Shown here: piece by piece, positions 24,630 through 34,612 of the stretch
Layout of the letters: each line of letters starts with the position of its first letter
Position numbering within the stretch: the first letter of the stretch is position 1
Source of the DNA: Cupriavidus gilardii J11
GTDB lineage: Bacteria; Pseudomonadota; Gammaproteobacteria; Burkholderiales; Burkholderiaceae
NCBI RefSeq assembly: GCF_007829435.1
Contig: NZ_VLJN01000023.1
Coordinates: 132,029 to 184,725 of the forward strand
DNA: 52,697 bases
Reading direction: 5' to 3'
Program-made: the position numbers and the translations under genes
Notes under the pieces: generated by a model
What the model saw: only the letters and a program-made list of their open reading frames with translations
Database searches by the model: none
Told to the model about the DNA's origin: nothing

Positions 24630-24706
24630 TCGTGACAAAGGGATGAAGGGCGGCCCCGGCAATGCATTGTGTTGCAATGCACCAACCCGGGGCTCCGTGC
24701 CCAGGC

Positions 24707-33423: not shown

Positions 33424-33756
33424 AAAGCAGGCCAGACAACCGCTGCTTGCCCGGCAACGGGCAAGGGGAGGAAAGTCCGGACTCCACAGGGCAGGGTGGT
33501 GGCTAACAGCCATCCACGGCAACGTGCGGAATAGGGCCACAGAGACGAGTCTTCGCGCTGGCTTGCCGGCGCGAAGGGTGAAACGCGGTAACCTCCACCC
33601 GGAGCAATCCCAAATAGGCAGACGATGAAGCGGCCCGCCGAGTCTGCGGGTAGGGAGCTGGAGCCGGCCGGTAACGGCCGGCCTAGAGGAATGGTTGTCA
33701 CGCGGCGCGGCGCAAGCTGCAGCCGTGCACAGAATCCGGCTTATCGGCCTGCTTTG
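33424..33756 (+). ncRNA. rnpB: RNase P RNA, bacterial class A
   Basis: The P4 and core signature GAGGAAAGTCCGGACTCCAC lies at about 33470-33489, and the 3' conserved AGAATCCGGCTTATCGGCC at about 33731-33749. The 5' end AAAGCAGGCC pairs with the 3' GGCCTGCTTT to form P1. The length of about 333 bases and these elements identify the catalytic RNA that matures tRNA 5' ends. Exact ends are inferred from P1 pairing. Confidence 0.96.
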
Positions 33757-33767
33757 CCTGTCTTCCC

Positions 33768-33803: not shown

Positions 33804-34226
33804 TTACGCCTCGACGATCTCGACGCTGTGCGACAGCTCCGCCGTCTTCGCCAGCATGATCGACGCCGAGCAATATTTGTCGTGTGAAAGCTGGACCGCG
33901 CGTTCCACCACCGCCGGATTCAGATTGCGGCCCGTGACCGTGAAGGTGAAGTGGATCTTCGTGAACACCTTCGGGTCCTCACCGGCACGTTCGGCGGAAA
34001 GCTTCACGCTGCAGCCGCGTACATCGTGCCGCCCGCGCTTGAGGATCAGCACCACATCGTAGGCGGTGCAGCCGCCGGTTCCCAGCAGCACCATTTCCAT
34101 CGGCCGGGGCGCGAGATTGTGGCCGCCGCCCTCTGGCGCCCCATCCATCGCGACGATATGGCCGCTGCCGGTCTCGGCGACGAAACTCATGCCTTCCGGC
34201 CCCATCCAGGTGACTTTGCATTCCAT
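33804..34226 (-). CDS. OsmC/Ohr-family peroxiredoxin-like protein
   Basis: The 140-residue protein has the OsmC fold pattern: MECKVTWMGPEGMSF, RPMEMVLLGTGGCTAYDVV with Cys53, and a second Cys in HDKYCSASIM near residue 119, followed by HSVEI. Two reactive cysteines fit thiol-dependent peroxide reduction, as in OsmC and Ohr; this subgroup resembles YhfA-type proteins. The frame extends upstream beyond 34226 without supporting similarity. It is convergent with rnpB. Confidence 0.88.
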   Translation of the reverse strand: MECKVTWMGPEGMSFVAETGSGHIVAMDGAPEGGGHNLAPRPMEMVLLGTGGCTAYDVVLILKRGRHDVRGCSVKLSAERAGEDPKVFTKIHFTFTVTGRNLNPAVVERAVQLSHDKYCSASIMLAKTAELSHSVEIVEA

Positions 34227-34367
34227 GGTGTTGCGCTTCCTGTTCGAATCGGCGAAGGCACGCATTTTCTCACCGTCCTCGCCAACTTGCCTGCACGGGC
34301 ATGAAGTGACGGCATGTTGCCATTTATTTTTCACATTGCAAAACACCATTGCGCCATGCAAATTTTC

Positions 34368-34395
34368 TTGCGTCGCACAAGCCGTCATGTATAAT
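34368..34395 (+). promoter_or_regulatory. Sigma-70 promoter of the candidate small RNA
   Basis: TTGCGT (34368-34373), a 16-base spacer and a perfect TATAAT (34390-34395). It lies upstream of no gene but a terminator 130 bases later, so it drives a short transcript. Confidence 0.65.
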
Positions 34396-34401
34396 TCAAG
34401 C

Positions 34402-34556
34402 CATTGAACGACGGGGCTTTCCGCGGTCCAGCAGTGTCCCGAGTGCGATATCCGCACCGACACCATCGATCCCCGCACCGTCGCTCGCCAAGTGTCTCCT
34501 CCACCCTCCTCCTTTGGTGGATTCAAACCCAAGCCAAACCGGCTTGGGTTTTTTTT
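34402..34556 (+). ncRNA. Candidate small RNA with anti-Shine-Dalgarno loop
   Basis: A promoter with perfect -10 predicts a start near 34402, and a rho-independent terminator ends at about 34556, giving an RNA of about 155 bases. Before the terminator, CCACC (34501-34505) and GGTGG (34516-34520) present the loop CTCCTCCTTT, which contains CCTCCTTT, identical to the anti-Shine-Dalgarno core of the 16S rRNA 3' end. A second CTCCTCC lies just upstream. No convincing reading frame is present. rplM has its own promoter downstream of the terminator, so this is not merely its leader. Toxic small RNAs with such motifs have been reported from betaproteobacteria; identity with them is unproven. Confidence 0.6.
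34525..34556 (+). terminator. Rho-independent terminator of the candidate small RNA
   Basis: AAACCCAAGCC (34525-34535) and GGCTTGGGTTT (34541-34551) form a perfect 11-base stem with loop AAACC and run into a T tract of eight or more bases. Confidence 0.93.
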
Positions 34557-34612
34557 CGCCGCCGTCCCCGTGCGACTCGAGCCACACTCTTGACGGCGCG
34601 CGCATTGTTTGC

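Follow-up and report, generated by a model that had tools for sequence, protein, structure and literature searches.

An RF02278 small RNA of Cupriavidus gilardii with a PhaR-type promoter palindrome: a putative link from the polyhydroxybutyrate store to uptake genes

What decides when a small RNA encoded between an osmC gene and rplM is made, and on which genes would it act? These questions are raised by a 52,697-nucleotide stretch of Cupriavidus gilardii J11 (NCBI RefSeq assembly GCF_007829435.1, contig NZ_VLJN01000023.1, positions 132,029 to 184,725 of the forward strand), the whole of which we call the window. The original prediction, made from the letters alone, placed here an RNA with a perfect TATAAT, about 155 transcribed bases and an 11-base-stem terminator, all of which the sequence bears out, and proposed that it might be of the betaproteobacterial toxic type, which a search of Rfam has since confirmed. 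We find in addition that its promoter carries a palindrome of the type recognised by PhaR, the regulator that responds to polyhydroxybutyrate (PHB), and that its seed is complementary to the ribosome-binding sites of 18 of 30 sampled genes for TctC solute-binding proteins. Read from these sequences, it is probable that PhaR represses this RNA, that PHB captures PhaR, and that the RNA then blocks uptake genes.

In the Rfam search of the window, RF02278 (Betaproteobacteria toxic small RNA) matched positions 34493-34557 of the plus strand with 69 bits (E 6.5e-12), the cut-off being 50. The alignment runs from end to end (model 1-64 of 64) and takes in both hairpins of the family, the second being the terminator, and the window RNA is a new member of this known family; the model itself spans the 64-nucleotide short form only, with neither 5' leader nor promoter. 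Kimelman et al. (2012) is reportedly the source cited for the family. The J11 genome holds three matches: the window copy and two paralogs, at C26:3985 (53 bits) and C1:252953 (47.6 bits, 2.4 below the cut-off that the other two exceed). All 60 sampled genomes of the genus have a match, 58 of them above the cut-off, as do 188 of 300 sampled Burkholderiales genomes (114 above it); none was detected in 14 control genomes or in the plasmid collection searched. NmsRb/RcoF1 of Neisseria (RF02877) has CU-rich stretches and a terminator arranged alike, but the window RNA is not a member of that family, scoring 28.1 bits against a cut-off of 52.

The evidence for control lies in the promoter. The palindrome TTCTTGCGTCGCACAAG (34365-34381, plus strand) overlaps the -35 element and agrees at 16 of 17 positions with YTKNTGCRNYGCANMAR, the Cupriavidus necator consensus for PhaR, for which up to three mismatches have been accepted (PMC12849132). 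PhaR of C. necator is a repressor of phaP1 and an activator of phaP3 (PMC12849132). In the promoters of both J11 paralogs the agreement is 17 of 17. Seven perfect sites occur in the J11 genome (4.88 Mb); allowing one mismatch raises the number to 70, against 31 for the reversed pattern. Two of the seven are the promoters of the RF02278 paralogs and one lies upstream of a phasin gene, the only one above the Pfam cut-off in the genome, where a second site is also found; of the remaining four, two fall between genes and two within apparent genes. The genome also encodes phaR (PF07879, 109 bits), so that the operator palindrome in the RNA's promoter occurs together with its putative regulator and with a phasin promoter as control.

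Some further sites may be recorded here. Of the perfect intergenic palindromes at L166 1501-1517 and L171 1501-1517, one lies between genes for a Rieske-type ring-hydroxylating oxygenase and an EamA transporter, the other upstream of a GNAT acetyltransferase gene. A second PhaR-like palindrome of the window, GTGTTGCAATGCACCAA (24669-24685), has one mismatch and is flanked by a gene of the glutamate-dehydrogenase type (PF00208) and one for a solute-binding protein (PF00497); a pair of such sites in the window carries no significance of its own (15 of 100 shuffles). The exact pattern TTGCRNYGCACAA has three sites in the genome (the window promoter, about 170 bases downstream of a paralog, and near the start of a transporter-like gene) and was too narrow, and the published consensus was used instead.

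Does the palindrome follow phaR beyond J11? PF07879 was sought in the same 300 Burkholderiales genomes, of which 203 proved positive. The order-level promoter loci compared with it, and the counts that follow, come from among the RF02278 matches listed, not from all matches. In a first set, a site with at most two mismatches was present in the 150 bases upstream in 22 of 29 order-level loci, and in 24 of 30 named rplM-linked loci outside Cupriavidus (48 of 78 named rplM loci were dropped because no core was detectable), with shuffles giving 2.1% and 4.5% respectively. Order-level paralogs had such a site in seven of nine cases, and perfect palindromes occur in 11 of 25 paralogs of the genus, each exactly 37 bases before the core (one of ten and five of 30 paralogs, respectively, were dropped for lack of a detectable core). 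Among loci fetched after the hypothesis had been formed, searched over 180 bases, 28 of 40 from phaR-positive but only two of 36 from phaR-negative genomes carry the site (Fisher p 3.5e-9; single-base shuffles 1.8%). Combining the sets gives 105 loci, and the site is found in 50 of 67 loci from 66 phaR-positive genomes versus two of 38 from 29 phaR-negative genomes (Fisher p 1e-12). At the level of families, at least one such promoter is present in 13 of 13 that are solely phaR-positive and in none of six that are solely phaR-negative; families f4 and f10 provide the only clean contrasts in phaR within a family. A -10-like hexamer stands 16-18 bases from the palindrome's NTGCRN hexamer in 31 of the 50 site-bearing promoters, and at exactly 17 in 24, a count made with no control. 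It is defensible to conclude that RF02278 promoters in phaR-positive lineages appear often, though not in every copy, to carry a PhaR-type site.

An RF02278 RNA that blocks ribosome-binding sites could nonetheless have its palindrome read by another regulator, since TGC-N3-GCA palindromes are simple and PhaR binding is here predicted from sequence. Yet the consensus was drawn up for PhaR of this very genus (PMC12849132), the J11 phasin promoter bears two such sites, and the site is rare where phaR is missing (the two of 38 loci above). We therefore consider a different regulator unlikely, and proceed with PhaR.

The promoter itself (34368-34395, plus strand) consists of TTGCGT, a 16-bp spacer and TATAAT at 34390-34395, from which a start near 34402 is predicted. 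A simple promoter scan of the window under a strict rule reported no sigma-70 site, having missed this one because the -35 is poor; nevertheless, all 30 distinct rplM-linked copies of the genus have a perfect TATAAT with TTGC at a constant distance ahead of it. Aligning 32 same-genus copies (30 distinct), none of which was excluded for lack of a core, shows a 31-base core at 34493-34523 that is invariant throughout. Mean conservation is 0.90 for the terminator, 0.80 for the -35/-10 region and 0.76 for the leader, against 0.54-0.67 for flanking non-coding DNA. A comparison of the osmC-rplM region across relatives had been suggested, and loop and terminator emerge from it as the best conserved parts, not the poorly conserved ones that would have told against the prediction.

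Two forms of the RNA are predicted. Both fold better than all 200 of 200 shuffles, the 67-nucleotide short form as two hairpins (z -5.0) and the 156-nucleotide long form at z -3.7. The sequence AAGUGUCUCC occupies 34490-34499 and includes GUGU at 34492-34495, so that a conserved sigma-70 type promoter and a GUGU cleavage context at the core are found together, as in long forms of the S17/NcS27 type. The 5' leader of the long form (34402-34492, plus strand, its start taken from the -10) is presumably removed by processing. It begins with CAUUGAACGACGG and is closed by a stem CGACGG/CCGUCG that is 97.9% paired across the genus with no two-sided changes, which makes this structure plausible rather than proven; the start and an internal GUGCG/CGCAC helix are conserved within the genus. 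An open reading frame in the leader was considered and rejected: leader lengths across the genus fall in all three frames, and a conserved peptide is therefore unlikely. The core opens with Site 1, the seed UGUCUCCUCC (34493-34502, invariant in 32 of 32), whose first seven bases, UGUCUCC, are predicted to be largely single-stranded, the probability of being unpaired reaching 0.93-1.0 in the short form and 0.68-0.96 in the long one. The first hairpin, UCCACC-CUCCUCCUUU-GGUGGA (34500-34521), presents Site 2 in a loop predicted to be unpaired. The intrinsic terminator (34525-34557) has an 11-pair stem (34525-34551), with two-sided changes at two of ten pairs counted, and a U run, the sole Hfq-related sequence feature seen.

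Since it shares its strand with rplM and lies about 260 bases ahead of that gene, the RNA might be taken for an untranslated leader. We find this hardly credible: the terminator and U run precede a second conserved TATAAT, the J11 paralogs have no rplM nearby, and Northern blots and 5' mapping show relatives to be independent RNAs (PMC5688073, PMC11722255).

What, then, would an independent RNA of this kind bind? The J11 genome has 18 copies of GGAGGAGAC with an ATG 2-10 bases beyond, and none of the reversed pattern. One occurrence is the antisense of a paralog, and 13 of the other 17 precede open frames of at least 200 amino acids, namely six TctC/Bug and three Peripla_BP_6 solute-binding proteins, one MFS transporter, an acetyl-CoA-synthetase-like enzyme, a LysR regulator and a cysteine-dioxygenase-like protein. 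For TctC, six of 13 is an enrichment with p 4e-7 if 111 TctC genes (of 112 matches in the genome) are set against an assumed total of 4400 genes. With TctC genes taken by family score instead, a 7-base complement of UGUCUCCUCC lies within 20 bases of a candidate start in 20 of 29 (L314 being left out of 30), versus none of 40 window genes, and no permuted seed exceeds 14 of 29 at this length. By other criteria, with genes of the 18 motif-chosen loci excluded and start codons uncurated, a 7-base complement at the ribosome-binding site is present in 18 of 30 TctC genes versus five of 109 J11 genes of other kinds; the figures are 19 of 30 versus 14 of 109 at six bases, six of 30 versus two of 109 at eight, and 11 of 30 versus one of 109 for GGAGACA itself. 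The suggestion that such an RNA could bind the ribosome-binding sites of many mRNAs fits this complementarity, from which binding would follow. A longer seed, TGGAGGAGACA before ATG, was also tried and gave two sites only, of which one is again a paralog read in antisense.

The original prediction had laid its emphasis on the loop, as a copy of the 16S anti-Shine-Dalgarno sequence. The loop is there: CTCCTCCTTT lies at 34506-34515, flanked by CCACC and GGTGG, and its anti-Shine-Dalgarno-like part is presumably identical to the 3' end of J11's own 16S rRNA. A pattern for the 16S 3' end found no match in J11's own genome, perhaps because it is absent from the draft assembly. As a sole criterion the loop motif CCTCCTTT was set aside, its single occurrence in the window being near chance (at least one in 33 of 100 shuffles). 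Nor is the loop essential. Both J11 paralogs (L002, L003) have ACCUC in place of CCUCCUUU, and two Polynucleobacter copies (L124, L136) carry an unrelated loop there, while all four retain the single-stranded UGUCUCCUCC 5' of the hairpin. The loop is thus dispensable in the family, the constant part being the single-stranded UGUCUCCUCC, which is also the part that fits the likely targets.

These losses bear on the family's name. A toxic RNA that inhibits growth through a general block of translation, by occupying Shine-Dalgarno sequences or competing with 16S rRNA, would accord with that name, with the CCUCCUUU in the loop and with the attenuated growth seen on NcS27 overexpression in Burkholderia cenocepacia (PMC5688073). 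It would accord less well with a loop lost from four copies, or with ribosome-binding-site complementarity concentrated in TctC genes (the 18 of 30 versus five of 109 above); moreover, S17, the Bordetella pertussis relative, left exponential growth of Escherichia coli unimpaired and only modestly impaired entry into stationary phase (PMC11722255). We regard general toxicity as improbable, more so than a different regulator, and prefer an RNA under PhaR that acts on uptake genes.

Several observations weigh against this preferred reading, on the side of control as well as of targets. The palindrome lies over the -35 in only six of 30 distinct same-genus rplM-linked copies (L001, L006 and L027-L030, with one mismatch each); in the other 24, a wider search confirmed that the best near-promoter site has 3-5 mismatches. 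Most close relatives thus have no such operator at this locus, and PhaR control of the rplM-linked copy is not universal; we infer such control for J11, its clade and its paralogs. The other 14 of 25 genus paralogs scored likewise have sites with 3-5 mismatches only. Across the order, 17 of 67 phaR-positive promoters among the matches listed exceed two mismatches. In family f43 the loci of both phaR-positive genomes lack the site and phaR-negative G102 has it; the other phaR-negative exception is G182 of family f36, an 85%-complete genome. Furthermore, phaR and lineage are confounded, with the family contrasts as the sole phylogenetic control on the counts. Presence of the RNA and of phaR are only weakly associated (both in 138 genomes, RNA only in 50, phaR only in 65, neither in 47; p 0.007); the informative comparison was that of the promoter site with phaR. 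PHB and PhaR are absent from the B. cenocepacia text PMC5688073. On the side of targets, the top-scoring of 500 permuted seeds does as well at six bases as the real one (22 of 29), the plain GGAG core is commoner in TctC genes (23 of 30 versus 30 of 109), and TctC genes are paralogs whose leaders may be shared by descent; given these facts and the uncurated start codons, part of the TctC signal could be ordinary ribosome-binding-site strength. The phasin ribosome-binding site, tried as a target by analogy with the small RNA MmgR discussed below, gave a weak match only, phasin mRNA pairing with Site 1 over about six bases as judged by eye.

One class of genus paralogs without the palindrome (L195, L197, L201, L205-L209 and L211) is probably under another regulator: seven of the nine have CCGGCGAATGGCGCAAG upstream and two deviate from it by one base.

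The surroundings of the window copy recur in relatives. It is flanked by an OsmC-family gene (33804-34226, minus strand, PF02566, 62.7 bits, start codon uncurated) and by rplM, for ribosomal protein L13 (34816-35244, plus strand, PF00572, 155.7 bits). Of the 30 loci examined in the genus (L001, L004-L032), 29 contain both genes, and the exception, L028, stops short of rplM. Further afield, a pattern match lies upstream of rplM in 33 of 80 named rplM loci, including some from Pandoraea, Paraburkholderia, Burkholderia, Herbaspirillum, Limnobacter, Polynucleobacter and Thauera. Of the 33, L064 appears degenerate; a second pattern added two loci (L119, L122), and 12 of 20 rplM-upstream pattern loci submitted to Rfam exceeded the RF02278 cut-off. 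RNase P RNA (rnpB, RF00010, 251 bits) adjoins osmC at 33424-33759, and rnpB, the small RNA and rplM also stand together in loci of Pandoraea, Paraburkholderia, Caballeronia, Polynucleobacter and Cupriavidus gilardii.

How does the RNA compare with its described relatives? In two Burkholderia loci examined (L068, L073) a copy lies between osmC and rplM, as here, and in B. cenocepacia BCAL3348 is, we presume, rplM. NcS27 of that species is encoded between BCAL3348a and BCAL3349 (PMC4603805), which fits the same place, and the position of the window copy accordingly fits NcS27. NcS27, ncS03, ncS05 and ncS62 likewise have a CU-rich seed and a loop, and likewise comprise one longer, processed copy and short copies (PMC5688073, PMC4603805), although the leader is 62-119 nucleotides in Cupriavidus against about 30 for the 92-nucleotide NcS27. 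Three of these four double-hairpin RNAs share an upstream motif, and NcS27-type RNAs increase in glucose medium, starvation and biofilm (PMC5688073). The window RNA is also related to S17, whose long form is cut by RNase E at GUGU to give 67 nucleotides, with involvement of Hfq published for such relatives (PMC11722255). The two resemble each other in the -35 (TTGCAT in S17), the 67-nucleotide form (predicted here), Sites 1 and 2 and candidate transporter targets, and differ in that S17 adjoins coq7, not rplM. For S17 the published text counts 91 candidate genes and the abstract 92; complementary sites are present in 70, and 32 transporter-related genes or operons are included (PMC11722255). 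In vitro transcription of S17 was unchanged by BvgA, and an unknown repressor has been postulated for its promoter (PMC11722255). The literature examined demonstrates no direct action of a transcription factor on an RF02278-type promoter.

A precedent in regulation, by description, is MmgR (alpha-r8) of Sinorhizobium meliloti, an Hfq-dependent small RNA repressed by PhaR/AniA through a promoter dyad (PMC12542648, PMC8401924), the PhaR sites of which shift in an electrophoretic mobility shift assay (PMC12542648). MmgR differs in being alphaproteobacterial and in its reported effect on phasins and PHB content. A role for riboregulation in PHB synthesis of C. necator was still undeciphered according to a 2021 review (PMC8401924). 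PhaR and PHB are absent from PMC11722255 and PMC10987360, and PhaR as a gene from PMC4603805; no link between PhaR and RF02278 RNAs turned up among the titles, abstracts and passages searched, from which subscription papers are largely missing, so that an earlier statement is possible.

Taken together, these observations suggest the following circuit. The sigma-70 type promoter would yield a long form of about 155 nucleotides; cleavage at the GUGU that precedes the core, of the kind known from S17, would turn this into a double-hairpin RNA of about 65, possibly dependent on Hfq. Its single-stranded UGUCUCCUCC, aided by the CCUCCUUU loop, would pair with GGAGACA-type ribosome-binding sites and lower translation, chiefly of periplasmic solute-binding proteins of uptake systems. 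PhaR, by binding the palindrome over the -35, would repress the window copy and the two paralogs until PHB granules form and capture it; the RNAs would then appear and restrain the uptake of carbon, organic acids included, so that the state of the store feeds back on import. It is this wiring, with PhaR as input and uptake genes as output, that would go beyond the known family.

We think it likely, if with somewhat less confidence than for the J11 circuit, that RF02278 RNAs are a core output of PhaR across Burkholderiales, silencing a large uptake-protein regulon through one shared seed in a recurrent, MmgR-like circuit. If so, perhaps dozens of the roughly 110 TctC/Bug genes of J11 belong to the regulon, PhaR becomes a candidate for the repressor postulated for S17, and, with MmgR of the alphaproteobacteria, PhaR control of translation-blocking small RNAs would be a recurrent circuit. 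The PhaR operator would place this RNA family in a genus much used for bioplastic, and would supply a family named for toxicity with a signal, the PHB granule, and a logic, in which a full carbon store closes carbon import.
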